Position numbers and translations under genes: made by a program. A stretch of DNA of 64,000 nucleotides. Source: Sphingobium sp. (GTDB taxonomy: Bacteria > Pseudomonadota > Alphaproteobacteria > Sphingomonadales > Sphingomonadaceae). This document shows positions 37,365-61,189 of this stretch, in pieces. The stretch lies in assembly GCA_035196065.1 (NCBI GenBank), contig CP136575.1, positions 1,021,001 to 1,085,000 of the forward strand. The letters are read 5' to 3'. The notes under the pieces were generated by a model that saw only the letters and a program-made list of their open reading frames with translations, made no database searches and had not been told where the DNA came from. How positions within the stretch are numbered: the first letter of the stretch is position 1; every line of letters starts with the position of its first letter.

Positions 37365-37385
37365 AATGTGATCGCTGATCATTTT
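37365..37385. promoter_or_regulatory. Regulon operator upstream of the TonB receptor
   Basis: Element AATGTGATCGCTGATCATTT(T). In reverse it contains the core TGATCAGCG found at all six sites (37365, 37409, 39891, 47641, 50891, 61168). It lies 37 bp upstream of the receptor ATG on the minus strand. Confidence 0.7.
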
Positions 37386-37408
37386 GGATGTTGAATGCAG
37401 ATTCGTTT

Positions 37409-37430
37409 GATGTCAACACTGATCACACTG
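37409..37430. promoter_or_regulatory. Regulon operator upstream of the amidase gene
   Basis: GATGTCAACACTGATCACAC(TG) contains the core TGATCAGTG in reverse. It is the second element in the divergent TonB receptor/amidase spacer, about 86 bp before the amidase ATG. Confidence 0.65.
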
Positions 37431-37515
37431 AAGGCACCCGGTAACGGTTGCGCCCTTGAAAGAAGGGATGCACGTTTACAGGAATTCGCCGATCCATTTT
37501 GCGGGGTGTAAAAAC

Positions 37516-38907
37516 ATGCAATCGGTAGTCGAAACAGCTGAACAGGTTCGCCAGGGAAAGCTTAAGGCAGTTGCGCGGACCCGTGATGCACTGGACGCAA
37601 TCGAACGGCTGAATGCGGCGATAAATGCATTTGTCATGCTCGACCCGGAAAGCGCTCTGGCAGCGGCAGAGCAGATCGACCGCAAGGTCGCCGCGGGCGA
37701 AGATCCAGGCCCCTTCGCCGGCGTGCCGATCGGGGTGAAAGACATGGAGGCCTGCGCCGGGTTCAGGATGACCCAGGGCAGCTGGTTCCTGCGCGATGCT
37801 CCACCGGAGAAGTCCGACTCCCGCCACGTCGCCCGGCTGAGAAGTGCCGGAGCGATTATCGTCGGGACCACTGCCTGTTCCGAATTCGGGATGGATTCGG
37901 CCACGACTTCCAAACTGTGGGGAACCACGCGCAATCCGTGGAACCTGGAGAAGACCCCCGGCGGCAGCAGCGGGGGGTCCTCTGCAGCAGTCGCCGCTGG
38001 GATGGTGCCACTGGCTACCGGAACGGACGCCGGCGGATCGATCCGCGAGCCAGCAGCTTTCACCGGCATCATCGGCCTGAAGCCGAGCCACGGCCGTATT
38101 CCGAAAATGAACGGCTTTGCCAACTGGTCAGTCCATGGTGCCCTGACCCGCACCGTGGCCGATGCGGCGCGTCACCTTGATGTCGCGGGCGGTCCGCATG
38201 ATGGAGACCGCCAGTCGCTCCCGGCCTTTCCCGGATCGTTCGAGGCCAGCATTGAAACCTTGGACGTCAAAGGCCTGCGCGCCACCTGGACGCCGGATTA
38301 CGGCTATGCCCCAGTCGAGCCTGAAGTGATCGAGATTGCCCGCGAAGCGGCTCAGCGCCTGATCCGCAACGCCAAACTGGTCGAACGAGATGTGCCTTTC
38401 GCCCCAGTCAACATCTATCGCCATTTCGGCGCGATCATGGGCAGCACGCTGGAGGCGGACTTCATCAGGGACGGCATCCTGCCCGATGGCTTCGAAATGC
38501 TGTCAGCACCCGTGCAAAGCCTGATCCGCAAGATCCGCGCCCGGCGCGACGAAATCGATGTCCAGAAATCCTGGCAACAGGTCTATCTGCTGGAGCGGCA
38601 GGTTGCCGATCTGTTTGCCGAAACCGATCTACTGATGTCGCCTGCGACCTCTTGCGCACCCTACGGCGCTGATGAATTGGTGCCAGAGGTGATCGACGGG
38701 CGAGATGCTTCCGAAACCGGGGCCGAACCGTTTGGAATGCTGGCCAATGCGTGCTGGAATCCATCCATTTCCATCCCCGCAGGGTTTACGGCGGCAGGAC
38801 TACCGGTCGGCCTGCAGATTACGGCGCGGCGGCACCGTGACGATATCCTGCTGCGGCTTGCCCGGATTGCCGAACTGACGGCACCCTGGCCATTCCCGCA
38901 AATGTAA
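37516..38907 (+). CDS. Amidase-signature family amidase
   Basis: Amide hydrolase with the Ser-cisSer-Lys triad: Lys in FAGVPIGVKDME (about residue 75), cis-Ser in TPGGSSGGSSAAVAAG and nucleophile Ser in ATGTDAGGSIREPAAFTG. It has 463 residues, the normal length, and no signal peptide, so it is cytoplasmic. The ATG at 37516 is preferred to an upstream start at 37456 because of GGGGTG about 8 nt before it and the family N-terminus. It is transcribed away from the TonB receptor through a shared spacer with two operator elements and followed by the TetR-type regulator. It may release ammonia or an amine from an amide in the imported substrate. Confidence 0.92.
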   Translation: MQSVVETAEQVRQGKLKAVARTRDALDAIERLNAAINAFVMLDPESALAAAEQIDRKVAAGEDPGPFAGVPIGVKDMEACAGFRMTQGSWFLRDAPPEKSDSRHVARLRSAGAIIVGTTACSEFGMDSATTSKLWGTTRNPWNLEKTPGGSSGGSSAAVAAGMVPLATGTDAGGSIREPAAFTGIIGLKPSHGRIPKMNGFANWSVHGALTRTVADAARHLDVAGGPHDGDRQSLPAFPGSFEASIETLDVKGLRATWTPDYGYAPVEPEVIEIAREAAQRLIRNAKLVERDVPFAPVNIYRHFGAIMGSTLEADFIRDGILPDGFEMLSAPVQSLIRKIRARRDEIDVQKSWQQVYLLERQVADLFAETDLLMSPATSCAPYGADELVPEVIDGRDASETGAEPFGMLANACWNPSISIPAGFTAAGLPVGLQITARRHRDDILLRLARIAELTAPWPFPQM

Positions 38908-39101
38908 GCACTTTTCACATGACGCGAGGCTATTTCCCGACTAGTCCAGCCTCGCCCGCCGCAGCATCGCGATCGGGCAAAGCTTGAACGCTTGTGCAAG
39001 TCGTGCTTGAGGCGTTGTGGGCCCGGGCATCGAAGCTGCAGGGCGGATGGGAAATTGAAGATGCTTTACCGCTACCGCCTGGCCACTGGGTGCACCCCGG
39101 C

Positions 39102-39752
39102 ATGACCGGCAAGTCCGCATCCGCTGCGGCCATGAAAAGCAAGGCCGCTGAACCCTATCATAAAGGGAACGTCCCGGCGCGACTGATGGAAGCGGCAGAG
39201 CGCATCCTTGAAACCGAGATGGTTGAGGATATTACGGCACGTCGACTGTGCCGGGAAGTCGGCGTTACTTCGGCCAATTTCTACAATCACTATCCCAGCC
39301 TGGAATTCCTGCTGCTGGAAATTGCCGCCAAGGGCTTTCAGGCGCGCACCCGCATGATGCGAAAGCTGATCAAGAGCAACCTCTCGCGGGAAGAGGCCAT
39401 GATCGAATGCGCGGTCAAAACGGTGGAACTCAGCCTCAAGCAACCGCAACTGTTCCGCATCATGTTCGGATACAGCAAGGAACCGACACAAAGCGCAAAC
39501 TACGTGAAGTACGGAGACGAATCGCTCGCTGTACTAACGCACATCGTCTATGGTGAAGATATCTTCCGCACGGATGATATCGCTTGGTCGCACGAGCATT
39601 GTCAGAAGGCCTATGCCTTCTTCTCGTTCATTTACGGCCTCGCCGTGGCCATGTCGACGAAGATGATTTCGAACCCGCATGGCACGCGCAAGTCGATGAT
39701 CGCGATCATCGAAGACGTTACCCGCGCATACCTGCGCGGTCTGGACGGCTAA
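39102..39752 (+). CDS. TetR-family regulator, candidate master regulator of the peptide regulon
   Basis: About 216 residues with an HTH reading ITARRLCREVGVTSANFYNHY followed by PSLEFLLLEIA; the ligand domain resembles the BetI/AcrR type. It is the only regulator gene seen between 30 and 64 kb, where one palindromic element recurs at six promoter regions, so it is the best candidate to bind them. It lies downstream of the amidase in the same direction and may be autoregulated through the 37409 site. The start is uncertain: ATG 39102 or 39132, neither with a strong ribosome-binding site. Confidence 0.87.
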   Translation: MTGKSASAAAMKSKAAEPYHKGNVPARLMEAAERILETEMVEDITARRLCREVGVTSANFYNHYPSLEFLLLEIAAKGFQARTRMMRKLIKSNLSREEAMIECAVKTVELSLKQPQLFRIMFGYSKEPTQSANYVKYGDESLAVLTHIVYGEDIFRTDDIAWSHEHCQKAYAFFSFIYGLAVAMSTKMISNPHGTRKSMIAIIEDVTRAYLRGLDG

Positions 39753-39890
39753 GCGCCAAACCGGCTGCCAGAACCGTGATCAAGACGCCGATCGCGCCGG
39801 ACTGGGGTGCGGACCGGGGTGCGTCTTGCGGTGTTCAGGTTGCGGCAGAGACCGTCATTGCGGACAGCAGGGATTGACCGCACGTCCCCA

Positions 39891-39912
39891 ATATGTACAC
39901 TGATCACATTGA
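39891..39912. promoter_or_regulatory. Regulon operator upstream of the transaminase/aminopeptidase pair
   Basis: ATATGTACACTGATCACATT(GA) contains the core TGATCAGTG in reverse with near-dyad ATGT/ACAT arms. It is 43 bp before the transaminase ATG. The spacer from 39753 holds nothing else recognisable. Confidence 0.7.
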
Positions 39913-39954
39913 CTCGCTAGAGGTCAGTTCGTTCAGTCAGTTGGAGGATGCCGC

Positions 39955-41289
39955 ATGTTTCCGGATCAAGGTTCAAAATCGAGCAGGCTGTTCGAGCGTG
40001 CGCTCAAGGTCATGCCGGGCGGAAATTCGCGGCATACGGTCTATTTCCCGCCCTATCCGATCTATGCGGCGAGCGCGCAGGGCGCGCGGGTAACCGATGT
40101 GGACGGCGTGACCCGGCTGGATTTCATCAATAATTACTCGTCCCTGATTCACGGCCACTGCCATCCCGAAGTGACCGAAGCGATCCAGCGCCAGGCCGCG
40201 CGGCTGACAGCCATTTCCCTACCCACCGAAAGCGAAATCGAACTGGCCGAAATCATCTGCGAACGCCTCCCTTCGGTCGAGCAGGTTCGCTTTGCCAATT
40301 CCGGGACGGAAGGGGTGATGATGGCGATCAAGACCGCCCGCGCCTATACCGGCCGGCGGATCATCGCCAAGATCGAAGGCGCCTATCATGGCGGCGACGA
40401 CACTGCCGCGGTGAGCACTTATCCCCACCCGGCCAAGCTGGCCGAACCCGAAGCGGGCATTGGCATTCCGGAAGTCGGATCAGGCCCCGGTACGGCAGCA
40501 GACGTCCTGGTCCTGCAGATGAACGATGTGGAAGGCGGCCGCAAATTGCTGCGTGCGCATGGCGCGGAGCTGGCGGCGGTTCTGGTTGATCCGCTGGTCA
40601 AGAACCTCGCCTATCAGCCCGCGTCGCTCGAATTCCTAACCATGCTGCGCGAAGAAACCCGCGCCCTTGGCGCTCTGCTGATCTTCGATGAAGTATATAG
40701 CCTGCGTCTCGGCTATGGCGGTGCACAGGAAGCCATTGGAATAATGGCGGATATTACCGCAATGGGCAAGATCATCGGAGGAGGCCTGCCTGTTGGTGCC
40801 GTCGGCGGTTCGGCAGAAATCATGTCGGCGGTTTACGATCAGCGCAAGGGCAAGGCCCGGGTTACACATGGCGGCACCTACAACGCCAACCCGCTGACAA
40901 TGGCTGCTGGCGTTGTCGCCATGCGCCTGTTTGACCGCGCCGCCTTCGACCGCCTGAGTGGCCTTGGAGACCGGCTCCGCGATGGCCTGAACCAAGCCAT
41001 TGCCGCGACCGGAGCCCACGCCATGGTGCGCGGGGCCGCCTCAATCGTCGGGCTGTTCCACACCGTAGCGGATGGGGCGACCTATCGCGATCTGATCCGC
41101 ACCAGCATGGCCAACCCCGGCATGGGGGCGAAAGCCGAAACCTTTTTCCATCATATGCTGAACAACGGCGTCCTGATGGGCGCGCCAGGCTTCTTTGTGC
41201 TCTCTACTGCGAATACCGAAGCCGACATCGATCATGTTGTCGAGCAGGCCTACGAAGCGTTCAAGATAATCGGAAAGCAGGCGGCATGA
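39955..41289 (+). CDS. Glutamate-1-semialdehyde aminomutase-like transaminase (beta-amino acid aminotransferase candidate)
   Basis: Class III PLP enzyme of 444 residues. Opening block MPGGNSRHTVYFPPYPIY, phosphate-binding NSGTEGVMMAIKTARAYTGR, LLIFDEVYSLRLGYGG and DITAMGKIIGGGLPVGAVGG with Lys about residue 272 for the Schiff base. Known beta-amino-acid transaminases (for example those acting on beta-phenylalanine) belong to this subgroup, and the true haem-pathway aminomutase would not be placed here. The stop overlaps the start of a BapA/DmpA-like aminopeptidase by 4 bp (ATGA), so the transaminase probably acts on the beta-amino acid released by that peptidase. The role is inferred from context and subgroup. 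Confidence 0.86.
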   Translation: MFPDQGSKSSRLFERALKVMPGGNSRHTVYFPPYPIYAASAQGARVTDVDGVTRLDFINNYSSLIHGHCHPEVTEAIQRQAARLTAISLPTESEIELAEIICERLPSVEQVRFANSGTEGVMMAIKTARAYTGRRIIAKIEGAYHGGDDTAAVSTYPHPAKLAEPEAGIGIPEVGSGPGTAADVLVLQMNDVEGGRKLLRAHGAELAAVLVDPLVKNLAYQPASLEFLTMLREETRALGALLIFDEVYSLRLGYGGAQEAIGIMADITAMGKIIGGGLPVGAVGGSAEIMSAVYDQRKGKARVTHGGTYNANPLTMAAGVVAMRLFDRAAFDRLSGLGDRLRDGLNQAIAATGAHAMVRGAASIVGLFHTVADGATYRDLIRTSMANPGMGAKAETFFHHMLNNGVLMGAPGFFVLSTANTEADIDHVVEQAYEAFKIIGKQAA

Positions 41290-42416
41290 AGCAGGCACAC
41301 CGACAGACGCCTTCGGGCAAAACGCGGGCGCGGGGAGCGGGCGTTCCGTTTGTCGGCACGCCGGGCGAATTCAATGCGATCACCGATGTGCCGGGCGTGG
41401 AAGTGGGTTACCAGACCCTGATCCGGGGCCATGGTCCGCTGGTCGTTGGCCAGGGCCCGGTGCGCACCGGTGTCACAGCCATTTTCCCGCGCGGCTACGC
41501 CAATCCGGAAGGCGCGGCCTATGCCGGTTTCTTCAACATGAGCGGCAATGGCGAAATGAGCGGCGCCGCCTTCATCGAGGAACGCGGCCGGTTTGATGGA
41601 CCGATCACCATCACCAACACCCATTCCTGCGGCCTTACTCGCGATGTCACGGCAAAGTGGCTATATTCCAGGCACAACAGCGCGGAAAAAGTCGACCAGC
41701 CATTCTATCTCCCGGTTTCTGCCGAAACCCATGATGGCCCGCTCAACGATATCAATGGGCACCACGTCACCGAAGCAGACGTGATTGCCGCATTTGAAGA
41801 TGCGCGCGGCGGCTGGATCGAGGAGGGCAGTGTCGGCGGCGGCACAGGCATGCGCTGCTTTGAGTTCAAGGGTGGATCGGGCACGGCATCGCGCGTGGTC
41901 AACTATGCCGGGCGCGATTATACCGTGGGCGCTTTCGTCCAGAGCAATTTCGGCAAGCGCCACTTGCTCAAGATCGCTGGTGTCCCGGTTGGCCTGGAAC
42001 TGCCGATTGTCGATTTCTCGCCGCCGGAATTTGGCTCGATCATCGGGGTCGTTGCCACCGATGCGCCCATGGCGCCGCATCACCTGCGCCGCATTGCGCG
42101 CCGCGCGGCCTATGGCATTTCCGCGACTGGGGGGATCGCGTCCAACGAATCCGGCGATCTTTTTCTGGCCTTCTCGACCGCGAACGAAGCAGCCGTGCGG
42201 CAGCATGAAGGGCTGGTAACCACCGAATTCGTCGGCGAAGCGGCTATGAGCCGGTTCTATGAAGCAACGATCCAGGCGGTCGAGGAAGCGATCATGAACA
42301 GCATGTTCGCCAACGAGACGATGACCGGGATCAACGGCTTCACCGTCCGCGCCCTGCCCATTCCCGAAGTGCAGGAAATCATGAAACGCTACAATCGGCT
42401 CGTCCCGGTCGATTGA
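41286..42416 (+). CDS. P1-family (DmpA/BapA) aminopeptidase
   Basis: Self-processing Ntn-type peptidase of 376 residues. DmpA cleaves N-terminal D- or L-residues; BapA, from sphingomonads, cleaves N-terminal beta-amino acids. The autoprocessing site is visible as EFG-SIIGVVATDAPM, Gly250/Ser251, almost exactly where DmpA is cut; the preceding FVQSNFGKR supplies the conserved Asn, and EEGSVGGGTGMRCFEFKGGSGTAS the alpha-subunit core. No export signal is seen, whereas BapA has one, so this enzyme is probably cytoplasmic. It is translationally coupled to the transaminase. Choice between beta- and D-specificity cannot be made from sequence alone. Confidence 0.93.
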   Translation: MKQAHRQTPSGKTRARGAGVPFVGTPGEFNAITDVPGVEVGYQTLIRGHGPLVVGQGPVRTGVTAIFPRGYANPEGAAYAGFFNMSGNGEMSGAAFIEERGRFDGPITITNTHSCGLTRDVTAKWLYSRHNSAEKVDQPFYLPVSAETHDGPLNDINGHHVTEADVIAAFEDARGGWIEEGSVGGGTGMRCFEFKGGSGTASRVVNYAGRDYTVGAFVQSNFGKRHLLKIAGVPVGLELPIVDFSPPEFGSIIGVVATDAPMAPHHLRRIARRAAYGISATGGIASNESGDLFLAFSTANEAAVRQHEGLVTTEFVGEAAMSRFYEATIQAVEEAIMNSMFANETMTGINGFTVRALPIPEVQEIMKRYNRLVPVD

Positions 42417-42470
42417 TCGGCAGGCAAACCGGGCCGGCATCGCTTGGCACCGGCTTGCCGACCCCAGCCG

Positions 42471-43577: not shown

Positions 43578-43604
43578 GTTGGGCAACTCCCGGTTTGATG
43601 AAAA

Positions 43605-47614: not shown

Positions 47615-47640
47615 CCAAGCATTCCTTCCCAAGCGCCGTT

Positions 47641-47662
47641 TATATGATCGCTGATTACATTA
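47641..47662. promoter_or_regulatory. Regulon operator in the serine hydrolase/acyl-CoA ligase spacer
   Basis: TATATGATCGCTGATTACAT(TA) contains the core TAATCAGCG in reverse. It is 27 bp from the serine hydrolase start and 58 bp from the ligase start, so one site could control both directions. A weaker ATGTATTCATCGCTCAC-like half-site follows near 47686. Confidence 0.7.
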
Positions 47663-47719
47663 CGCCTTGTTGATCGCGGCTTGTCAATGTATTCATCGCT
47701 CACTTTCGGGAGATCAAGC

Positions 47720-49300: not shown

Positions 49301-49319
49301 GCAATCGCCGCCATGATGC

Positions 49320-49345
49320 AGGGGTCGTTCGACTAGTCGACCCCT
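49320..49345. terminator. Possible hairpin terminator between converging genes
   Basis: AGGGGTCG / CGACCCCT stem with a 10-nt loop at the convergent ends of the ligase and DUF1330 genes. No T tract follows, so confidence is modest. Confidence 0.35.
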
Positions 49346-49626
49346 TCGACCACGCACAGCTCGATTTCTGCCGCGTTCAACCGGTGGGCACGGGCGGACT
49401 GGTATTCTTCGGAATGCCAGTATTCCATAGCCGTGTCGTAACTGTCGAATTCCAGGATGACATTGCGCGGGCGGGCACCACCCTCCAGTCCGGTGTAGCG
49501 CCCGCCGCGCGCCAGAATTCGCGCACCGTATCGTTCCATCGCGCCCCGTGCCAACCCTGCATAGATGGCGTAGGCATCCGGATCGGTCACGCTGACCCGC
49601 GCAATGATATAGCCCTTCGCCATCAT
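49333..49626 (-). CDS. DUF1330 family protein
   Basis: A 97-residue protein with a dimeric alpha/beta-barrel (ferredoxin-like) fold. It begins MMAKGYIIARVSVTDPDAY, followed by GGRYTGLEGGARPRNVILEF and AMEYWHSEEYQSARAHR, the full DUF1330 pattern. The function of the family is not established. The ATG overlaps the stop of the aminotransferase gene by 4 bp (ATGA), so the two are translationally coupled; a small accessory role in the same step is an inference. Confidence 0.88.
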   Translation of the reverse strand: MMAKGYIIARVSVTDPDAYAIYAGLARGAMERYGARILARGGRYTGLEGGARPRNVILEFDSYDTAMEYWHSEEYQSARAHRLNAAEIELCVVEGVD

Positions 49627-50858: not shown

Positions 50859-50890
50859 TCGATCAGCATCCCTTGCATTGCCAATCCCGT

Positions 50891-50913
50891 TATGTAATCA
50901 GTGCACACATTGA
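50891..50913. promoter_or_regulatory. Regulon operator between aminotransferase and enoyl-CoA hydratase genes
   Basis: TATGTAATCAGTGCACACAT(TGA), core TAATCAGTG with ATGT/ACAT dyad arms; the most symmetric copy. It lies between divergent starts at 50858 and 50968. Confidence 0.72.
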
Positions 50914-50967
50914 GAGGGCGAGTCAATTCGTCTGTTGGCGGTTTTTAAGGGAAAGGGTGTGCGCGCG

Positions 50968-51777
50968 ATGAGCAAGGATTCCCGGTCGTTCACCGGGCTT
51001 CGCCTGGAGCGTGACGGCAATGTGGTTACGGTCACGATTGACCGTCCTGCCGCGCGCAATGCGATGGACGGCGCGCTGATGGACAGCCTGACCGAAGTCG
51101 CCCGCCAGCTGCGCCGCGACCCGACCGTTCGCGCCGTGATCCTGACCGGACAGGCGGAATTCTTCTCTGCGGGCGTCGATCTGCAGATGTCTTCCAGTCG
51201 CAGTGCCGCCAGCGCAAGCCTGCTGGAACTGCGCTCGGCGGTCGCCGCTGGCCCGGATATGTGCCAGGCCTGGGAAGACATCGAAGCGGTGACGATCGTT
51301 GCCATCGAAGGTTTCTGCGTGGGCGGCGGGCTGGCCCTGGCGCTCTCATGTGACTTCCGGATCATGGGCGAAGGTTCGTTCGTCCGCCTGCCCGAAGTGC
51401 CGCTGGGCATGAACATGAGCTGGCGATCCCTGCCCCGCCTGACCGCCCTGGTCGGCCCGTCGCGGGCAAAACGCATCGTCATGTTCGGCGACCCGGTCGA
51501 TGCCGGAACCTGCGCCACCTGGGGGCTGGCGGAACTGACCTGCGCCAAGGGCCAGGCCCTGAGTGAGGCGCGCGCCTGGGCTACCCGCATTTCCGGGCTT
51601 CCCCCGATTCCGGTGCGGATGACCAAGGAAGCCATAAACGCCGCCGCGCTCGCCAATGCCGCAGCGGTCAGCTTCATGGACCGCGACCAGTACCTGCTGG
51701 CCGCCCGCTCGAACGACTTCCGCGAAGGTGTCTCCGCCTTCCTGGCAAAGCGCCATCCCGAATTCAAAGGCGACTAA
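50968..51777 (+). CDS. Enoyl-CoA hydratase/isomerase (crotonase) family protein
   Basis: Crotonase-fold CoA enzyme of 269 residues. [17 protein letters not shown] opens the fold; FSAGVDLQM and [19 protein letters not shown] form the oxyanion-hole region. In typical hydratases the second block reads GGGxELA; here the Glu is Ala, while the second Glu ([12 protein letters not shown]) is kept. One glutamate is more like an enoyl-CoA isomerase or another crotonase, so simple hydratase activity is uncertain. ATG 50968; a GTG at 50959 is an alternative. First gene of an eight-gene plus-strand operon. Confidence 0.85.
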
Positions 51778-51811
51778 GCCTCGCTCCCGCTCAACCGACA
51801 AGGAAATCACG

Positions 51812-52993
51812 ATGAAACTAGCAGCAATCGTTTCAACGGCACGCACTCCCATTGGCCGGGCCTACAAAGGTGCGTTCAACGATCTTGAAGCGCCGACCCT
51901 GGCCGGTTTCTCGATTGCCGAAGCCGTGCGCCGCGCTGGCATTGCCGCCGATGAAGTCGAAGATTGCATCATGGGCTGCTCGATCCAGCAGGGCACCCAG
52001 ACCTTCAACATCGGCCGCCTCTCGGCCCTGGCTGCGGGCCTGCCTGTAACGGTCGCCGGGATGAGCATTGACCGTCAGTGCTCATCCGGACTGATGGCGA
52101 TTGCCACCGCGTCGCGGCAAGTCGCCTGTGATGGAATGCAGGTGATCGTCGCGGGCGGGGTGGAATCGATCAGTCTGGCCCAGACGCCGGCCATGAATAT
52201 CTCCCGCGTGCCCGACCCGCGCCTGTTCGCACGCCATCCCGCGATCCACATGCCGATGCTCGACACGGCAGAGATCGTCGCCAACCGTTATGGCATCAGC
52301 CGCGAGGCGCAGGACCTTTATGCCCTTTCCAGCCAGCAACGCACGGCAGCGGGCATGGCCGCCGGCAAGTTCGATGATGAGATCGTCGCGGTCACTTGCG
52401 AGATGTTGGCGACCGACAAGGCCACGGGCGAGCGGACCAAGCAGGAAGTCACAATTGCCCGCGATGAAGGCGCGCGGGCCGATACGACTCTGGAAGGATT
52501 GGCATCGCTGAAGGCGGTGCGCGAAGGCGGTTCGATCACCGCAGGCAATGCCAGCCAGCTTTCCGACGGATCTTCGGCCTGTGTCGTCATGGATGCGGAT
52601 CTGGCGGCGCGGCGCGGCATTCCGGCCCTGGGCTATTTCCGGGGCATGACCGTGGTCGGCTGCGAGCCGGATGAAATGGGCATCGGCCCGATCTTTGCCA
52701 TTCCCCGCCTGCTGGAACGCAACGGGCTGAAAATGGACGATATCGGCTTGTGGGAAATCAACGAGGCCTTCGCCTGCCAGGTGCTCTATTGCCGGGATTA
52801 CCTGGGCATTCCGGACGAGCGGCTGAACGTCAATGGCGGAGCGATCTCCATCGGCCACCCCTATGGGATGAGCGGCGCGCGGATGGTTGGCCACGCCCTG
52901 ATCGAGGCACGCCGCCGCGGCGAAAAATATGTCGTGATCTCGATGTGCGTGGGCGGCGGGCAAGGCGCTGCCGGCCTGTTCGAGGTGGCCTAG
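51812..52993 (+). CDS. Thiolase (acetyl-CoA acyltransferase)
   Basis: Thiolase of 393 residues that cleaves a 3-ketoacyl-CoA with CoA. The nucleophile is Cys90 in [13 protein letters not shown], the His base lies in [20 protein letters not shown], and the second Cys in [14 protein letters not shown]. Motif spacing and length are standard. AAGGAAA lies about 6 nt before ATG 51812. It is 34 bp after the crotonase and one base before the epimerase-like gene. In the regulon it would complete beta-oxidation of the CoA-activated acid. Confidence 0.94.
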
Positions 52994-52994
52994 G

Positions 52995-53981
52995 ATGGAG
53001 CTTCTGTTCGCCTTTCAGGAATGGCCCTACGCGGAAACGTTCCGCATTTCGCGCAGCGCCAAGACCAATTCCGAACTGTTCACGGTCTATGTCCGCGACG
53101 GCGGCCATGTCGGTCGCGGTGAATGCGGTCTGTTGCCGCAGTACGGCCAGACCCGTGAGGATGTCGCCGCTGCCCTGCACGATGCCGCAGACCTGATCGC
53201 AGCCGGAGCGAGCCGCGCCGAAATTGCCGAAAAGGTCAGCAACACCTCGGCCCGCAATGCCCTGGACTGCGCCTTGTGGGATCTGGAGTGCAAGCGCAGC
53301 GGCCAAAGCATCTGGGAGCGCACAGGGGTGGCGCGCAAGGACGCGATCGAGGTCGACCTGACCATCGGGATAAACCCCACGGCCAAGATGCGCGAAGATG
53401 CCTTGGCCGCTTTCGCCAAGGGCTTTCGCATCCTCAAGCTGAAGGCCAACCAGGAAGACGTGCTGGAACGGGTTGAGGCGATTGCCGCCGCCTGCCCCGG
53501 GGCCTCGCTGATCGTCGATGCCAATGAAGCCTGGGACATTGCCACGCTGAACCGGCTGACCGGTCCACTCGACAAACTGGGCGTAGCCCTGATCGAACAG
53601 CCGCTGCATCATCTGGCCGACGAGCCACTGGCCGGATACACCGGCGAGATTGCCCTGTGCGCGGATGAAAGCTGCAGTTCGCTTGCCGATCTGGACCGTC
53701 TGGCCAGGCTTTACCAGGCAATCAACATCAAGCTGGACAAGGTTGGCGGGCTGACCCCGGGGCTGGAACTGGAAGCCGCCGCCCATGCCCGCGGCATGAA
53801 AGTGATGCTGGGTTGCAGCGGTCCGACCTCGCTTGGCGCGGCGCCCGCTTATGTGCTTGGCACGCGGTGCGACTTCGTCGACCTCGACGGGCCGGCTCTG
53901 CTGCTCGACGACCGGGCCGATGCCATGCACTATTCAGGCGGCAATCTGCACTGCTTCTCATCGGCCCTGTGGGGCGGCTGA
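52995..53981 (+). CDS. Enolase-superfamily dipeptide epimerase-like protein
   Basis: Muconate-lactonising/dipeptide-epimerase branch of the enolase superfamily, 328 residues. The catalytic lysine pair is seen in ILKLKAN (about residue 145) and INIKLDKVGG; metal ligands are Asp in IVDANEAW, Glu in LIEQPL and Asp in LCADES. The C-terminal substrate-specificity DLDGPALLL resembles the L-Ala-D/L-Glu epimerase group, which acts on dipeptides. Its place between thiolase and asparaginase, in a regulon with peptidases, suits epimerising a D-residue-containing dipeptide before cleavage. Confidence 0.85.
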   Translation: MELLFAFQEWPYAETFRISRSAKTNSELFTVYVRDGGHVGRGECGLLPQYGQTREDVAAALHDAADLIAAGASRAEIAEKVSNTSARNALDCALWDLECKRSGQSIWERTGVARKDAIEVDLTIGINPTAKMREDALAAFAKGFRILKLKANQEDVLERVEAIAAACPGASLIVDANEAWDIATLNRLTGPLDKLGVALIEQPLHHLADEPLAGYTGEIALCADESCSSLADLDRLARLYQAINIKLDKVGGLTPGLELEAAAHARGMKVMLGCSGPTSLGAAPAYVLGTRCDFVDLDGPALLLDDRADAMHYSGGNLHCFSSALWGG

Positions 53982-53990
53982 GCCACGGCA

Positions 53991-54983
53991 ATGCGCGGGA
54001 CCCGGCGGAAAATAAGCGTGATCGCCCTTGGCGGCACGATCGCCATGGCAGACGGGCCGGGCGGACTTGCGCCTGCCCTTGATGCGGCGCAGCTCACGGC
54101 GGAACTGGCCGCAGAACACGCGGGCCTGGACATCGACTGGACCGATTTCGCCAAGCTGCCCAGTGCCAACATTACTTTTGCCGACCTGATCCGACTGGCC
54201 AGAACGATCGAGCGGCTGCACGATGATGGCTATCACGGCGTCGTCATTTCACAGGGGACCGACAGCCTGGAGGAAACCTCCTTTGCGCTGGAACTGCTGG
54301 TTTGCCGGCCCATAGACATTGCCTTGACCGGCGCCATGCGCGGCAGCAGCGCGCCGGGCGCCGATGGTCCGGCCAACCTTCTGGGCGCCCTGCACTTTCT
54401 GGAGGCATCGCCGGGCCTGGGCGAGGTGGTGGTGGTCCTTGATGATTGCGTCCACGCGACGCGGCACGTGACGAAAAGCCATACCACTGCGCTATCGGCA
54501 TTCAGCTCGGGCGAAGCTGGCCTGCGCGGCCGGATTCACGAAGGCCGCTTCGTGGCCATCAATCCGCCCCGGGCCTCACTGGCCAAAGTGGCGATCCAGC
54601 CCGATGCGCCGCCCGCCCATGTCGAACTGGTCAGCATCGCCATCGATCATTCGCCATGGATTTTTCGCGCGGCGGAGAACGCTTCAGTCGCTGGGTGGGT
54701 CATCGCAGCGATGGGCGCCGGACACGTGCCTGAGGCCCTGGTTCCCGAACTGGCCCGGCTTTCCGCAAAAGTGCCGGTCGTGCTCTGCTCGCGCGCCGCC
54801 TGGGGTGCGGTCTGCACCGCCACCTATGGCTATCCGGGCGCGGAGATCGACCTGCTGCGGCGCGGCCTGGTCCCAGCGGGGAACCTTTCCCCGCTGAAGG
54901 CGCGGGTGCTGCTTACCCTACTGCTGATGTCAGGCACGCACGCCTGGCGCGACGAATTTACCAGAACCGCCAGCGCGGTTTGA
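53991..54983 (+). CDS. Asparaginase/glutaminase-family amidohydrolase
   Basis: Type I/II asparaginase fold, 330 residues. The first catalytic Thr lies in ALGGTIAM (Thr16), the second in VISQGTDSLEET (Thr90, Asp91), and the Lys in VTKSHTTALSAFSSGEAG. No signal peptide is seen, so it is cytoplasmic. It would release ammonia from asparagine, glutamine or a side-chain amide, possibly of an unusual or D-residue. It begins 9 bp after the epimerase-like gene and is followed by the SDR after 27 bp; all are on one message. Confidence 0.9.
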   Translation: MRGTRRKISVIALGGTIAMADGPGGLAPALDAAQLTAELAAEHAGLDIDWTDFAKLPSANITFADLIRLARTIERLHDDGYHGVVISQGTDSLEETSFALELLVCRPIDIALTGAMRGSSAPGADGPANLLGALHFLEASPGLGEVVVVLDDCVHATRHVTKSHTTALSAFSSGEAGLRGRIHEGRFVAINPPRASLAKVAIQPDAPPAHVELVSIAIDHSPWIFRAAENASVAGWVIAAMGAGHVPEALVPELARLSAKVPVVLCSRAAWGAVCTATYGYPGAEIDLLRRGLVPAGNLSPLKARVLLTLLLMSGTHAWRDEFTRTASAV

Positions 54984-55010
54984 ACTAACGGATTGAAAAG
55001 GAACACACCA

Positions 55011-55802
55011 ATGGCAGATATTTTCGCACCCGGCATCTTCAACGGCAAGCGCGCCTTTGTTGCAGGTGGATCAAGCGGGATCAATCTCGGCATTGCCGCA
55101 CGCCTGGGCGCGCTGGGGGCAGAAGTCGGAATTTTCAGCCGGTCCCAGGAAAAGATCGACAGCGCCCTGGACCTGTTGCGGGAAGCCGGAATAACCGCAT
55201 CTGGCTATACCGGGGATGTCCGCCAATACGATACGGTTGCAGCCGCCTTCAGCGAGTTTGCCAGCAGCGGTGGCGGAATCGATTTCGTGGTTTCCGGCGC
55301 GGCTGGCAACTTTGTCGCCCCGGCCATGGGGATGTCGCCCAACGCGTTCCGCGCGGTGGTAGAGATCGACCTGCTTGGCACCTATCACGTCATGCGGGCA
55401 AGCTATGAGCATCTGCGCCGTCCCGGTGCTTCATTGATCAACATTTCCGCTGTCCAGTCCAGTCAGGCGATCCCGTTTCAGTCCCACGTCTGCTCGGCCA
55501 AGGCGGGGATCGATATGCTTACAAAGGCACTGGCCGTCGAATGGGGACCGGCCGGAATCCGCGTCAACGCGATCCTGCCCGGACCGATCAGCGACACCGA
55601 AGGCATGCGCCGCCTCTCTTCGACGCCCGAAATGGAAAAGAAAATCACCGGAGCGATCCCGCTGCAACGCTTTGGCACCAAGGAAGAGGTCGCCAACCTG
55701 GCCGCATTCCTCTGCTCTGATGCCGCTTCCTACATCAGCGGCGCGGTCATGACCTGCGACGGCGGGCAATTGGCCGGAAACCCGATGGGCTTCGTTGGCT
55801 AA
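55011..55802 (+). CDS. SDR resembling 2,4-dienoyl-CoA reductase
   Basis: Short-chain dehydrogenase of 263 residues. The cofactor motif is FVAGGSSGINLGIA. Instead of NNAG the third block reads VSGAAGNFVAPAMGMSPNAFR, and the rest (SAKAGIDMLTKALAVEWGPAGIRVN, PGPISDTEGMRRL, IPLQRFGTKEEV) follows peroxisomal/mitochondrial 2,4-dienoyl-CoA reductase. That enzyme lacks the catalytic Tyr of typical SDRs and removes a conjugated double bond during beta-oxidation of polyunsaturated acyl chains; SAKAG here also lacks the YxxxK Tyr. ATG 55011 has AAGGAA upstream. It suggests the acyl part of the substrate is unsaturated. Confidence 0.85.
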   Translation: MADIFAPGIFNGKRAFVAGGSSGINLGIAARLGALGAEVGIFSRSQEKIDSALDLLREAGITASGYTGDVRQYDTVAAAFSEFASSGGGIDFVVSGAAGNFVAPAMGMSPNAFRAVVEIDLLGTYHVMRASYEHLRRPGASLINISAVQSSQAIPFQSHVCSAKAGIDMLTKALAVEWGPAGIRVNAILPGPISDTEGMRRLSSTPEMEKKITGAIPLQRFGTKEEVANLAAFLCSDAASYISGAVMTCDGGQLAGNPMGFVG

Positions 55803-55844
55803 GCCCCCTCCCTGCAAGCCCGTCTGAACACAAAGGACAGTCCG

Positions 55845-57167
55845 ATGTCAGCCACCGCCATTCCCAACGACCTGTCTGCCTACTGGTTGCCGTTCACTGC
55901 AAACAAGGCCTTCAAGGCAGCACCGCGCCTGATCGTCGGGGCCGAAGGACAGTTCTATCATACTGCGGACGGGCGCCGGATCCGCGACGCCTTTTCCGGA
56001 ATGTGGTGTTCGATCCTGGGGCATGGCCATCCCGGCATTACCGCGGCTATCGTCCGCCAGGCGCAAACCCTGGATTATTCGCCGGCCTTCAACTTCGCCA
56101 CGCCCGGCGCCTTCGATCTGGCCAGCCAGGTTGCGGCGCAGTTCCCCGATGGGCTTGAGCATGTGTTCTTCACCAATTCAGGTTCGGAAGCGGTCGATAC
56201 CGCGCTGAAGATGGCGCTGGCCTATCACCGAGCGCGCGGCGAAGGCACGCGCACGCGGTTCATCGGGCGGGTCAACGGCTATCACGGCGTCGGTTTTGGC
56301 GGCATTTCGGTCGGCGGCATGCCCAACAACCGCAAGTTCTTTGGCATGGGCCTGCCCGGCGTGGACCACATGCCCTTCCCCTATGACCCCGCACTGGACG
56401 GCTTTACCAGAGGCGAGCCCAGCCGCGATCCGATGACCTACCTGAAGGAGCTGGAGGCGATTATCACGCTACACGATCCTTCCTCTATCGCGGCTGTCAT
56501 TGTCGAACCAATGATCGGTTCGGCTGGCGTGTTCGTGCCGCCCAGCGGCTATCTGAAAAAGCTGCGCGAGATTACCGAGCGGCATGGCATCCTGCTGATC
56601 CTGGATGAAGTGATCACCGGGTTCGGGCGGCTAGGCGCGGCCAACGGCGCGACTTTCTTTGGCGTTACGGCAGACCTGTGCACCATGGCCAAGGGGATCA
56701 ACAATGCCGCCGTGCCCATGGGCGCGGTGATAGCGCATCAGAAGATCCACGACACCATCATCAATGCGACGCCGACCGGAGTGGAATTCTTCCACGGCTA
56801 TACCTACTCCGCCCATCCGCTTGCCATCACCTCGGGGCTGGCGGCCCAGCAGGCGATCCGCGAAGAGGGCGTTTACGAAAACGTCCGGCAGCTTGCCCCC
56901 GTTTTTGAAGAAGCCATGCACAGTCTGCGCGGCGAACCCTATGTAACTGACATTCGCAACCTCGGCCTGGCCGGGGGCATGACCCTGGCCCCGCACAAGG
57001 ATGGCCCTGGCCTGCGCGGCTATGAACTGTTCATCAAGGCTTACGAACGCGGGGTTTCGATCCGGGCCAATGGCGACACGATCGCGCTGGCACCGATCCT
57101 GACCAGCAACCCGTCCGACCTGGAAGAGATCTTCGACCTGGTCCGCCAAAGCCTGCGCGCATTGTAA
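55845..57167 (+). CDS. Omega-amino acid:pyruvate aminotransferase
   Basis: Class III PLP enzyme of 440 residues in the beta-alanine/omega-amino-acid:pyruvate group. AYWLPFTANKAFK at the N-terminus, FSGMWCSILGHGHPGITAAI, NSGSEAVDTALKMALAYHRARG and LLILDEVITGFGRLG are characteristic; the Schiff-base Lys is 283 in TMAKGINNAAVPMG. It moves the amino group of beta- or omega-amino acids to pyruvate, yielding alanine and a semialdehyde or 3-oxo acid. Alanine dehydrogenase at 30.8 kb would recycle the alanine. It is the sixth gene of the long operon, 42 bp after the SDR. Confidence 0.93.
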   Translation: MSATAIPNDLSAYWLPFTANKAFKAAPRLIVGAEGQFYHTADGRRIRDAFSGMWCSILGHGHPGITAAIVRQAQTLDYSPAFNFATPGAFDLASQVAAQFPDGLEHVFFTNSGSEAVDTALKMALAYHRARGEGTRTRFIGRVNGYHGVGFGGISVGGMPNNRKFFGMGLPGVDHMPFPYDPALDGFTRGEPSRDPMTYLKELEAIITLHDPSSIAAVIVEPMIGSAGVFVPPSGYLKKLREITERHGILLILDEVITGFGRLGAANGATFFGVTADLCTMAKGINNAAVPMGAVIAHQKIHDTIINATPTGVEFFHGYTYSAHPLAITSGLAAQQAIREEGVYENVRQLAPVFEEAMHSLRGEPYVTDIRNLGLAGGMTLAPHKDGPGLRGYELFIKAYERGVSIRANGDTIALAPILTSNPSDLEEIFDLVRQSLRAL

Positions 57168-57177
57168 CGAGGCACCC

Positions 57178-58317
57178 ATGATCATCAATTCCGTCAATGA
57201 CTTTCGTGAACTTGCCCGGCGGCGCCTGCCCTGGCCGGTATTCGACTATATCGATGGCGCTGCCGACGACGAATTGACCAAGGCCCGCAACACTGCCGCG
57301 TTTGACAATGTGGACCTGGTTCCCGATGTCCTTGCCGGGGTTGGCGAGATCGACACCAGTTGCACAATCCTCGGCAAGAAGTCTGCCCTGCCGCTTATCC
57401 TGTCGCCCACGGCATTACAGCGGGTATTCCACTGGCAGGGGGAACGCGCTGTTGTACGAGCAGCCGAGAAGTTCGGCGTGTGGTGCGGAATTTCCAGCCT
57501 TGCGACGGTTTCCATCGAGGAAATCGGTGCAATGATCTCAACACCAAAGATGTTCCAGCTCTATATCCATAAGGACAAAGGGCTCAATCGCAGCATGATC
57601 GAACGGTGCAAGGCTGCCAAGTTCGATGCGATCGCGCTTACTGTGGACACGATCGTGGCTGGCAAGCGCGAGCGCTGCGCGCGTAGCGGTTTCACTTCGC
57701 CGCCGCGGCTGACACTCTCGTCCGCCCTGTCTTACGCGGTCAAGCCCGCCTGGGCGTTAAATTATATGCTGCGTGAGAAGTTTGCGCTTCCCAATCTCGA
57801 CACACATGTCAGTGAGGGAACCGGTGAGGCAGTCTCGATCGCCGACTACTTCAACAAGATGCTCGACCAATCGATGGATTGGCAGGTGGCAGAGCATGTC
57901 CGCAATGATTGGGGCGGCAAGTTCATCCTCAAGGGGGTGATGAGCGCGGCCGACGCCCGCCGGGCCGTTGAGATCGGGGCAGATGCAATCATGATTTCCA
58001 ATCATGGCGGACGCCAGCTTGACGGCAGCCGTGCGCCTTTCGACCAACTGCCCGAAATCGTCGATGCCGTGGGCGGTCAGATCGAGATCATCTGCGACGG
58101 CGGCATCAGGCGCGGTACCCATGTCTTAAAAGCGCTGTGCGCAGGCGCTTCAGCAACTTCGGGGGGCAGACTCTACCTCTATGCACTCGCCGCTGCTGGA
58201 CAGCACGGAGTCGAACAAGCACTTGGAATCCTGAAGGACGAGATTGAGCGCGGTATGAAGCTGATGGGGGTCCCTGCGGTAGACCAGCTCAACCGTGAGC
58301 GCCTACGCCGTCGCTGA
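57178..58317 (+). CDS. FMN-dependent alpha-hydroxy acid dehydrogenase (L-lactate dehydrogenase type)
   Basis: Alpha-hydroxy-acid oxidase family, 379 residues. Starts SVNDFRELARRRLPWPVFDYIDGAADDE; the active-site segment ALTVDTIVAGKRERCARSGF and the catalytic His276 in MISNHGGRQLDGS are intact; CDGGIRRGTHVLKAL binds the FMN phosphate. It oxidises a 2-hydroxy acid such as L-lactate to the keto acid. Lactate could come from the deoxy-keto-acid pathway encoded at 33-35 kb. It begins 10 bp after the aminotransferase. A truncated second copy of its C-terminal half lies at 61290. Confidence 0.93.
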   Translation: MIINSVNDFRELARRRLPWPVFDYIDGAADDELTKARNTAAFDNVDLVPDVLAGVGEIDTSCTILGKKSALPLILSPTALQRVFHWQGERAVVRAAEKFGVWCGISSLATVSIEEIGAMISTPKMFQLYIHKDKGLNRSMIERCKAAKFDAIALTVDTIVAGKRERCARSGFTSPPRLTLSSALSYAVKPAWALNYMLREKFALPNLDTHVSEGTGEAVSIADYFNKMLDQSMDWQVAEHVRNDWGGKFILKGVMSAADARRAVEIGADAIMISNHGGRQLDGSRAPFDQLPEIVDAVGGQIEIICDGGIRRGTHVLKALCAGASATSGGRLYLYALAAAGQHGVEQALGILKDEIERGMKLMGVPAVDQLNRERLRRR

Positions 58318-58353
58318 AGCGGCAAAGCCAGCACAAATACTCTGGAGAGATTG

Positions 58354-59610
58354 ATGCAAGAACCGCTTCCCGGTGTGCTGGAGCACATCGAACAAGCTCG
58401 CCGCACTGCAAGCGTCGTTAAAGACATTCCAGCTGACACTCCGCTTCTCCCGATCCGCCGCTTGGGAGTGATTGGCGCAGGCACGATGGGCAGCGGGATC
58501 ACCATGAATTTCTTGACCGCTGGCCTCCCGGTGACATTGCTGGATAGGTCACAGGATGCTCTCGACAAGGGCGTGGCGATGATTGAGCGAAATTATCAAA
58601 GCGCGGTCAAGCGCGGGAAGATAGATACCGCGCAAGCCGAAGCAGCCATGACCAATTTGGCAGCAAGTGTCGATTTTGCGGATCTGGCAAACGCCGATCT
58701 GATTATCGAAGCCGTCTACGAAAACATGGACACTAAGAAGGGCGTATTTGCCAAACTGGACAAGATTGCAAAGCCGGACGCAATCTTGGCGAGCAATACC
58801 AGCAATCTGGATATCGACGAAATTGCGCTGGCAACATCACGCCCGCAGTCCGTCCTAGGGATGCACTTCTTCTCGCCCGCTCATGTCATGAAACTGCTCG
58901 AAGTCGTGCGGGGGAAGGCAACGGGCAAGCAGCAGCTTGCAACAGTGATGGCACTGGCGGTGGCGGTTGGAAAGACCCCGGTCGTCTCTGGAGTTTGCTA
59001 TGGCTTCATCGGCAACCGGATTTTGCACGCGAGGCAAATACAGGCTCAGGCTCTTATTATGGAAGGCGCAAAGTACTGGGACGTCGATGCGGCGTTACTG
59101 GAGTTCGGGTTTCCAATGGGACCATGGCAGATGGCCGATCTTGCCGGCATAGATCTTGGCTGGCACCGCGATGCATGCAGGATCGAAAATCTCCAGGATG
59201 CACTTTGTGCAGCAGGGCGCTGGGGACAGAAAACCGGCAAAGGTTTTTACGATTACGATGAAAACCGAAAGCCGAAACCATCACCAGAAGTAGAGGCCCT
59301 GATTGAAACTTTTGCCCAAAAGACGGGCAAGCCGCAGCGCGAGATCGGCAAGCAAGAAATTCGCGAACGCCTGCTTTATCCAATGATCAACGAGGCCGCC
59401 CTGATTTTGCAGGAAGGGATCGCCCAACGTGCCAGTGACGTCGATACCGTCTGGCTTAGTGGCTATGGCTGGCCTGCATGGACAGGAGGTCCAATGTTCT
59501 GGGCACACCACCTTGGCCTAAAGGTTATCGTAAAGGGCCTCGAGAAATATAGTCTTCCGGTTGCGCCACTGCTGGCAGAAAAGGCTGAGGCGGGCACACC
59601 CCTCGAGTAA
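58354..59610 (+). CDS. 3-hydroxyacyl-CoA dehydrogenase
   Basis: NAD-dependent beta-oxidation enzyme of 418 residues. After a 35-residue leader the Rossmann motif IGAGTMGSGITMNFLTAGL is followed by EAVYENMDTKKGVF (catalytic Glu region), SNTSNLDIDEIA and GMHFFSPAHVMKLLEVVRG, with His, then two C-terminal dimerisation domains. It resembles the dehydrogenase half of FadB/FadJ without the hydratase half, which may be supplied by the separate crotonase in this operon. ATG 58354 has GGAGAG upstream. It ends the eight-gene plus-strand operon and is lower in G+C than the first genes of that operon. Confidence 0.93.
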   Translation: MQEPLPGVLEHIEQARRTASVVKDIPADTPLLPIRRLGVIGAGTMGSGITMNFLTAGLPVTLLDRSQDALDKGVAMIERNYQSAVKRGKIDTAQAEAAMTNLAASVDFADLANADLIIEAVYENMDTKKGVFAKLDKIAKPDAILASNTSNLDIDEIALATSRPQSVLGMHFFSPAHVMKLLEVVRGKATGKQQLATVMALAVAVGKTPVVSGVCYGFIGNRILHARQIQAQALIMEGAKYWDVDAALLEFGFPMGPWQMADLAGIDLGWHRDACRIENLQDALCAAGRWGQKTGKGFYDYDENRKPKPSPEVEALIETFAQKTGKPQREIGKQEIRERLLYPMINEAALILQEGIAQRASDVDTVWLSGYGWPAWTGGPMFWAHHLGLKVIVKGLEKYSLPVAPLLAEKAEAGTPLE

Positions 59611-59636
59611 ACGCCCTGCACAGCACCAGCACTGCG

Positions 59637-61058
59637 TCAGTCTTTTGGATTTTGCGCAAAGTGTAAGGCGCCGGCTTGGCCGATTGGACTCTCATCGCCG
59701 CCGGACATAGCCACAAGACGGCGGTCCAGAACGCGGCGTATGGCGACGTGGCGTGTCCGGGTGATCGGGTAAAGGAGCATCAACAGGCCAGAGATCAACA
59801 ACAGCGCCATCGGCAGGAACACTGCAAGCGTGATCAGTCCTTGTGTTGCAGCAGCATCATTGTTCCCGCCTGGATCAAAGCCAATCACTCCCAGCATATA
59901 GAATGCAAAAGAACCGCCAATCGCGCCTCCAGCCGGGATCAACATGGTCCGCATCGCAAAATAGGCGCCGAGCCGATTGGAACGGGTCTTGAGTGCATCA
60001 AAATCAGCGATGTCCGCGAGCAAGGACGGCGAAAACATCATACTTGGTGTGTTCATACTGGCGACAAATGCAATGAAGCCCAGCAAAACATAGAAATCCG
60101 CTTGTCCTGCCGGTTCAAACAACAAGTAAAGCGGCAAAAGCGCGCCGCTGAGGATTTGCCCCCAAGCATAAAGAAGGTGCTTGCCAAAGTGCCCTGCAAG
60201 CTTTTCGCACAGCGGAATGGCAACAACCTGGAGCGCGGTTGCGGCGAGCAAAACCATCACAATCGCTTCCGCGAAACCAAAATAGTCATCGAGGACGATA
60301 GCCATCAAGGCGTATGTGATCGCCCAGCTGATCGAATTGAGCACCTCGGCAGCCATATAAATCCGAAACGGTCCATTGCTGGTTACGATGGTCCTAAGCT
60401 CAAGGACTCCGACGCTGTGACCTCGGGTCACCGTGCCGACTGGAACAACAAGAACCGCAATCAGGACGGCTACGGGCATCAAGACCATGCCTACCAAGCC
60501 AAGGATTTCCATTGCGCTGCGGTCCAGCGCGGCAGTCCTCAAAATACCTATGGATGGGTGCGAGAGGATTTCAGGAACTGCCATGAACGCTATTCCGCCA
60601 ACAAGCATGGCGAGAGCCTGCGCTCCACTGATCCGCGAGCGCTGGGCATAGTCTGTGCTAATCTCACCAGACCATGAATTATAGGGGGTCGAGAGCAGGC
60701 TTTGGGCAAGATAGAAAGCCATCATACCACAAAGGAACCAGCGGTTTCCGGCGCCCTGCGGTGGGATGAAAATCACCCAAAATGCAAAGACGGAAACGAT
60801 TGCTCCTGCCACCAACCACGGCTTTCGCGGTCCGAACCGGCCGGAAGTGCGATCGGAAAGATAGCCGATAGGCAGATCTACTGCGCCATTGAACAGACGA
60901 GCAATGAGGATGCCAGTGGCAATCCCTGCAGTCGTTGCCTCGGTGTATTTAGCGTAAAATGCCATCAGCAAGGCTGGAAAAGGCGAATTAAGCAACGATT
61001 GCGGAATGGATGGCAGGGCATAGGCCCAAAGCACCTTGCGAGGCAATTTAACGCTCAC
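59637..61058 (-). CDS. GPH-family cation symporter
   Basis: Third GPH/MFS symporter in the window, about 473 residues. The TM2-3 loop is DLPIGYLSDRTSGRFGPRKPWL, and the TM4-5 loop TPYNSWSGEISTDYAQRSRISG; both follow the family pattern. A start is proposed at the GTG at 61058 just before the first helix; no strong ribosome-binding site is seen, and a TTG at 61112 is open in frame. It is convergent with the hydroxyacyl-CoA dehydrogenase and divergent from the truncated lactate dehydrogenase, with a regulon operator in the spacer, so it probably imports the substrate or a fragment of it. Its base composition is lower in G+C than the 40-57 kb genes. Confidence 0.86.
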   Translation of the reverse strand: MSVKLPRKVLWAYALPSIPQSLLNSPFPALLMAFYAKYTEATTAGIATGILIARLFNGAVDLPIGYLSDRTSGRFGPRKPWLVAGAIVSVFAFWVIFIPPQGAGNRWFLCGMMAFYLAQSLLSTPYNSWSGEISTDYAQRSRISGAQALAMLVGGIAFMAVPEILSHPSIGILRTAALDRSAMEILGLVGMVLMPVAVLIAVLVVPVGTVTRGHSVGVLELRTIVTSNGPFRIYMAAEVLNSISWAITYALMAIVLDDYFGFAEAIVMVLLAATALQVVAIPLCEKLAGHFGKHLLYAWGQILSGALLPLYLLFEPAGQADFYVLLGFIAFVASMNTPSMMFSPSLLADIADFDALKTRSNRLGAYFAMRTMLIPAGGAIGGSFAFYMLGVIGFDPGGNNDAAATQGLITLAVFLPMALLLISGLLMLLYPITRTRHVAIRRVLDRRLVAMSGGDESPIGQAGALHFAQNPKD

Positions 61059-61167
61059 GCCGTGCCGTTTCGCGCAATTGGATAGATCAGGCGGGTCAGG
61101 TCGCCAGCGCAATTTTCAGAAGCACGAGATATCATCTGCAGCCCTCCCACGGCGAGCATCTGGCCGT

Positions 61168-61189
61168 TATATAATCAGTGTATACATAA
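61168..61189. promoter_or_regulatory. Regulon operator upstream of the third symporter
   Basis: TATATAATCAGTGTATACAT(AA), core TAATCAGTG. It is 110 bp upstream of the symporter start and 101 bp before the plus-strand truncated dehydrogenase, and lacks one base of the left ATGT arm. Confidence 0.65.

Follow-up and report, generated by a model that had tools for sequence, protein, structure and literature searches.

The gene cluster and its palindromic element

The window analysed here is a 64-kb stretch of Sphingobium sp. DNA (GenBank contig CP136575.1, positions 1,021,001 to 1,085,000) and coordinates refer to it unless stated otherwise. It contains a cluster of genes with repeated copies of a 19-bp imperfect palindrome and, at 39102..39752 on the + strand, the gene for a TetR-family regulator, which is the proposed binder of the palindrome. 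On the - strand a TonB-dependent receptor gene (35088..37343) heads a run continuing with genes for an SDR protein (34324-35055), an FAA hydrolase (open reading frame (ORF) 33447-34544) and an MFS_2 symporter (32025-33407) and ending with alanine dehydrogenase (ald, 30825-32015). An amidase-signature hydrolase gene (37456..38907) precedes the regulator gene on the + strand, and a class III, beta-transaminase-like aminotransferase gene (39955..41289) and the gene for an S58 aminopeptidase of the DmpA/BapA type (41286..42416) follow it. Further to the right are serine hydrolase 1 (42471-43586), PepN (43605-46196) and serine hydrolase 2 (46193-47632), all on the - strand, an acyl-CoA ligase (47681..49300, +), a class I/II aminotransferase (49623-50858, -) with a DUF1330 protein (domain within ORF 49333-50004, -), and an eight-gene operon (50935..59610, +) for ECH, thiolase, L-Ala-D/L-Glu epimerase-like, asparaginase, SDR, AptA-type aminotransferase, FMN_dh and 3HCDH proteins. 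The last complete gene is MFS_2 symporter b (59637..61112, -). There are 24 genes from ald through symporter b, or 25 if a truncated FMN_dh copy is included. The TetR protein is the sole regulator among the ORFs scanned between 30.8 and 61.2 kb, as the initial annotation had stated.

The same annotation had described six TRATCAGYG elements, most of them with arms, at six promoter regions. All six are present and intergenic, and each is a copy of the palindrome, made up of the left half ATGTRATC, the centre AGY and the right half GNNNAYAT. Two of them form a tandem pair before the TonB receptor gene. The proximal member is at 37366..37384 (-) and the distal member, which is proximal for the amidase gene, is at 37410..37428 (-) and contains TTGACA, the likely -35 box of the TonB promoter. 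The spacing of the pair is 44 bp here and 44-47 bp in the related loci L016, L017, L018 and L021. The other four predicted operators are found before the class III aminotransferase-S58 peptidase pair (39891..39909, -), between serine hydrolase 2 and the acyl-CoA ligase (47642..47660, -), between the class I/II aminotransferase-DUF1330 unit and the eight-gene operon (50892..50910, +) and between symporter b and the 5'-truncated FMN_dh copy (61169..61187, +). As claimed, the genes diverge at four of the five intergenic regions, and the ORF list gives a tandem arrangement for the region from TetR to the transaminase. The list of six was not complete. It lacked a site upstream of TetR which overlaps the end of the amidase gene (38902..38920, +), a weaker second copy (47687..47705, +; score 18.2) located 45 bp beyond the site at 47642 and inside the opening codons of the ligase ORF in its called form, and a strong site (G000:C1:1087512) 2.5 kb to the right of the window, between an acetoacetate-decarboxylase-like (ADC-like) gene and an SDR gene. 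The strong sites thereby number eight, seven of them in the window.

The core TRATCAGYG occurs eight times in the window, where shuffled sequence has a mean of 2.17; the two copies besides the six (10355 and 18011) have no palindrome arms. Allowing up to three mismatches, the 19-mer yields 15 strand-matches there, shuffles having a mean of 1.24 and a maximum of 6. A genome-wide scan had been proposed as a check, and its outcome spoke partly against the claim for the bare core but not for the whole element. The bare 9-mer has 208 matches across the whole genome, so that alone it is unspecific and was rejected as a signal, but the whole palindrome is specific. The one-sided 19-mer with at most one mismatch occurs in eight places in the genome, six of which are in the cluster. 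The symmetric pattern ATRTRWNCRNYGNWYAYAT has five perfect places in the 3.02-Mb genome, and the cluster contains all five, including one a little beyond the right edge of the window. It also contains eight of the ten places with at most one mismatch; the site at 37410 has two mismatches to ATRTRWNCRNYGNWYAYAT and hence is not one of the ten. Among the matches outside the cluster, that at 2773885 scores 16.3 and is within overlapping ORFs; others are at 1742868, 1727679, 2546010 and 1733064. The chromosome record also has two TGATCAGTG cores in its first 405 bases (G000:C1:151 and 397).

The initial annotation had grouped about 23 genes into one regulon. The grouping was upheld and the count is now 25 in the window, counting the truncated gene, with up to five more to the right. 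There, genes for a MOFRL kinase, a 2-hydroxyacid dehydrogenase, a histidinol-dehydrogenase-like protein, the ADC-like protein and the SDR protein, followed by an IS21 pair, may form a putative unit with the site at 1087512. The second FMN-dependent dehydrogenase copy (61197-61877) is 81% identical to residues 177-379 of the copy at 57178 and lacks the N-terminal half even though an operator precedes it; it is probably a decayed duplicate. Just left of ald is a tyrosine integrase ORF (29809-30522, 237 aa) with an Arm-DNA-binding domain and part of a catalytic domain, and IS21 genes are present on the right side at L001:3721-6037. These flanking genes suggest that the cluster is an acquired island. 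Plasmid carriage was considered and rejected: among the 20 of 29 matches listed, plasmid TetR relatives reach at most 37% identity, that one over half the query, and all 138 plasmid relatives of the aminotransferase are below 60% identity.

Conservation of the sites beside related TetR genes

A scan of named genomes for TetR relatives gave 33 loci, which were fetched with about 10 kb on each side. Sites were scored with a matrix trained on eight own-genome sites alone, two of which were added in this analysis, and gene starts in the relatives were extrapolated from tblastn matches. In 14 TetR-bearing loci (TetR 30-74% identical; L020, L022 and L023 are one genome, SO-S41) there are 44 sites scoring at least 18, with at least one per locus. 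All are outside homologous genes, and 42 have the start of a homologue no more than 300 bp downstream. The gene downstream is the TonB receptor for 14 sites, the class III aminotransferase for 10, and the amidase and MFS_2 symporter for 8 each, with others making up the rest and a divergent site being scored for both genes. Gene order varies from locus to locus and the sites keep their position ahead of the units.

Ten Markov shuffles per locus gave no sites, and 25 control loci gave one site, inside a gene. The controls were 18 loci around S58 relatives (2.5-4.1 kb each) and seven further stretches, L002-L004 from the own genome and L012-L015 around TetR relatives of about 35% identity, so that four of the 25 surround a distant TetR. 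The S58 relatives came from 18 other genomes of the order (48-53% identity) and their best motif scores were 2.2 to 18.3; the 18.3 match falls within the S58 homologue of L062 and accounts for the one control site, and no such site was found outside genes in these loci. In a class-wide sample of 385 genomes, one other genome (G784) has a relative of the aminotransferase at E 1e-125 (the nearest, 49%) and the best motif score at that locus is 1.7. A close TetR is absent from the 18 S58 control genomes and G784, the best match having 30% identity and covering part of the protein (E 5.9e-14). Six of these 19 genomes have such a weak match (24-30%, E 5.9e-14 to 2.4e-9).

The 19 farther TetR loci (30-43% identity) have 12 sites, none in homologous genes and two within 300 bp upstream of TetR. 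The palindrome follows the TetR subfamily even to some loci that lack most of the enzymes (Komagataeibacter). In L028-L041 several Komagataeibacter and relatives have a TetR relative or two, in some cases along with genes for MFS_2 and TonB proteins, and carry ATATGAACANYGTTCAT-type palindromes ahead of TetR; this set seems to be a separate regulon belonging to the same TetR subfamily. In Sandaracinobacter neustonicus (L040, L006) the amidase match covers residues 246-483 only. This part is joined to a frame that by eye resembles a transposase, and the adjoining TetR-aminotransferase-S58 module is otherwise conserved.

Perfect symmetric sites were also located in whole genomes. Those in the TetR cluster are 2 of 2 in the environmental strain Caulobacter vibrioides OR37, 4 of 4 in Phenylobacterium, 1 of 1 in a Caulobacteraceae metagenome-assembled genome (MAG) and 2 of 3 in a Caulobacter MAG, one OR37 site and one Caulobacter MAG site lying approximately 75-100 bp past the fetched stretch, beside serine hydrolase 2 by coordinates. 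SO-S41 has three TetR relatives at E below 1e-40 and a weak fourth, and carries three diverged copies of the TetR cluster with their own sites in each. Six of its 11 perfect sites are in these clusters. The other five are at, or up to approximately 110 bp before, gene starts and mark an AptA homologue (50%), an amidase (56%), two serine-hydrolase homologues (39% and 48%) and a phosphotransferase-aminotransferase pair. One of the five (4044655) has a TetR gene 21 kb away, which leaves four that are distant. An additional scored site lies ahead of an ald homologue in this genome.

The TetR protein and the promoter layout

The protein encoded at 39102 has the N-terminal helix-turn-helix of the TetR family. 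Its match to PF00440 (E 6.3e-4, 19.9 bits) is below the 24-bit gathering cut-off; its solved relatives are named transcriptional or TetR regulators (best E 2.8e-11) and the motif ANFYNH is invariant across 20 aligned TetR sequences. At E 1e-15 relatives are rare, being found in 4 of 298 genomes sampled from the family, including the own genome, and none was found in the five other genomes of the genus in that sample.

The recognition helix and the palindrome appear to vary together. Where the TetR has the Ser-type helix, V[TA]SANFYNH, position 7 of the half-site is mixed (A in 23 of 78 half-sites), and where it has the Pro-type helix, V[TA]PANFYNH, nearly all half-sites (99 of 104) have A there. 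These counts, derived from rounded fractions, use sites scoring at least 15 rather than 18 and cover 11 of the 19 farther loci (all but L037 and L042-L048). As the half-sites are not independent and the change may have occurred once, the Fisher value from these counts is no true probability. The predicted operator base preference thus tracks the Ser or Pro of the helix. Together with the presence of 44 sites in 14 loci against one in 25 controls, this supports the proposal in the initial annotation that the local TetR would be the binder.

Both promoter alignments were judged by eye. At the aminotransferase promoter a match TTGACC-16-TACACT is present at 39874-39901 and the operator at 39891 overlaps its -10-like box. 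The arrangement of TTGAC(C/G) followed after approximately 16 bases by a -10-like box inside the operator is found in the window, L016, L017, L021 and L040. TTGACA within the distal TonB operator is present in the window and in all eight relatives aligned, these being 8 of the 11 that have a TonB homologue. Around 52 sites (300-bp span), 30 of 55 TTGAC occurrences are at -40 to -11 and 12 of 55 at +10 to +19, neighbouring sites having some occurrences in common. A promoter scan over 13.8 kb found 4 against 3.5 expected and thus counts only in combination with the cross-genome alignment. The operators have a median distance of 58 bp from the extrapolated gene start. Given this distance and the overlap with, or inclusion of, -10-like or -35-like boxes, the layout would fit repression by promoter occlusion.

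Function of the proposed regulon

The palindrome is common to the promoters of the target genes and to the regulator gene and its unit, which is the arrangement of a local TetR regulon. The S58 protein matches PF03576 at 1.9e-100 and its nearest solved structure is DmpA, followed by a 361-residue protein of the Pyrococcus type and BapA. It keeps the Gly-Ser site, which in this family is the autoprocessing site, its GSII at position 250 aligning with DmpA. The protein is of the DmpA/BapA type and may cleave N-terminal beta-amino acids. The class III aminotransferase resembles 6k8h, ForI, MesAT and VpAT; glutamate-1-semialdehyde aminomutase was rejected as an identity for it at 315 bits against the NCBIfam hemL cut-off of 527.3. 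PMC9850050 proposes an Arg/Val/Glu/Tyr motif for beta-amino-acid transaminases, of which, by eye, Arg and Tyr are kept here, Glu is replaced by Asn and the Val position is Thr. Judging from the enzyme set, peptides that contain beta-amino and/or D-amino acids are the most likely substrate, and one substrate for the whole regulon is plausible.

A different substrate would be the murein stem peptide (L-Ala-D-Glu), in which case the epimerase, which resembles L-Ala-D/L-Glu epimerase (its likeness to DgcA being below cut-off), the S12-type hydrolases and alanine dehydrogenase would have a role. However, the epimerase is present in only 2 of the 14 related loci against 13 for the beta-transaminase-like enzyme and 11 for the S58 peptidase, absences which are weak evidence because the loci end about 10 kb on each side, and the CoA enzymes would be superfluous. 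We regard murein as an unlikely substrate.

We consider it highly probable that the palindrome is the operator of the 39102 TetR acting as the local repressor of a peptide-catabolism regulon, this judgement covering mechanism and substrate jointly, and the regulator is very probably one local repressor over approximately 25 to 30 peptide-degrading genes. In the absence of inducer a TetR dimer would occupy the sites overlapping the promoter elements of each unit and the whole set would be off. A derivative of the imported substrate would bind TetR and release it, giving joint induction of the receptor, symporters, peptidases, aminotransferases and CoA enzymes, with feedback via the sites before tetR and before the amidase-tetR unit. 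The substrate would be taken up by the TonB receptor and symporters and cleaved by PepN, the S58 peptidase, the serine hydrolases and the amidase; the products would be deaminated by the aminotransferases and alanine dehydrogenase and the carbon chain degraded by the ligase/ECH/thiolase/3HCDH set.

Several results weigh against this proposal. Eleven of the 19 farther TetR loci have no site scoring at least 18 and five, including L042 with a TetR of 39% identity, have none scoring at least 14. The test loci were fetched via TetR and some have an ancestry in common with the window, so the co-occurrence is partly by design and the sites are not independent; the correlation between Ser/Pro and position 7 may represent one evolutionary event. 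The -35/-10 layout with the operator is found in just 5 of the 11 rows at the aminotransferase promoter, TTGACC being farther upstream in L024, L025 and L027 and not clearly present in L018, L019 and L020. The first operon also contains an SDR gene and a sub-threshold match to 2,4-didehydro-3-deoxy-L-rhamnonate hydrolase, superfluous for a pure peptide pathway.

Three other explanations concern the sites themselves. Were they unrelated AT-rich promoter sequences, alike by chance, the 208 copies of the 9-mer core would be accounted for, but the specificity and conservation of the whole palindrome contradict this and leave it a negligible probability. Another regulator, either a different TetR or one of the CRP/FNR type, could bind the sites while the local TetR controls something else. 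The genome does have 16 TetR_N matches including the 39102 protein, and the TGTGA...TCACA arms resemble CRP half-sites. However, at E 1e-15 or better the 39102 TetR matches only itself in the own genome, the sites track its subfamily into other gene settings and the half-site varies with its recognition helix. The CRP consensus is TGTGA-N6-TCACA, and a site of that type was rejected as the arm spacing is 7 here rather than 6. Binding by another regulator is thus very improbable. It is hardly more probable that TetR is an activator. A few members of the family do activate, but at the two aligned promoters the operators overlap a -10-like box or contain a -35-like box, and their distance from the gene start is short.

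The type of regulation is already known and the regulon itself seems new, no description of it having appeared among the papers listed in searches of the open-licence PMC literature. The reuse of one site around a local TetR had been called rare, which was too strong, as a local TetR in control of several operons is a familiar arrangement. FadP, LiuQ, PsrA and RutR (PMC5343134) are likewise TetR-family regulators with predicted operators common to genes of one catabolic function, but their gene content differs and there is no peptide function among the TetR entries in the available rows of that paper. Like DmpA and BapA (PDB 1b65 and 3n2w), the protein here is of family S58 with the Gly-Ser site kept, but it sits in a TetR regulon with a TonB receptor, symporters and aminotransferases. 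The aminotransferase shares with MesAT and VpAT (PDB 2yku and 4ao9) the class III fold, the arginine of PGGN[S/T]R and the Tyr of the motif proposed in PMC9850050, but has Asn for the motif Glu and scores higher against 6k8h and ForI; it is a candidate for such an activity.

Microcystin is a peptide with D- and beta-amino acids, and the mlr cluster for its degradation likewise has a penicillin-recognizing-type serine hydrolase. Unlike that cluster, the own genome has no match to MlrC_C, a weak negative since the control genomes were equally silent and mlrA was not sought. No paper supporting a link to microcystin was found in the open-licence PMC literature.

More tentatively, with somewhat less than an even chance in our estimate, this may be a horizontally mobile, modular and undescribed regulon for beta-/D-amino-acid peptides (such as non-ribosomal peptides or lipopeptides) in scattered Alphaproteobacteria and less well placed MAGs, one titled Exilibacterium, with TetR sensing a beta-amino-acid derivative and the three copies in SO-S41 tuned to related substrates. 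Judging by the outlying sites in SO-S41, further genes of the pathway could be recognised from the operator alone. For this putative system of peptide catabolism the analysis predicts an operator, a regulator and approximately 25 to 30 target genes. The conserved TetR sensor could be used to find the inducer, and the TetR-operator pairs would form a natural series for the study of specificity change.

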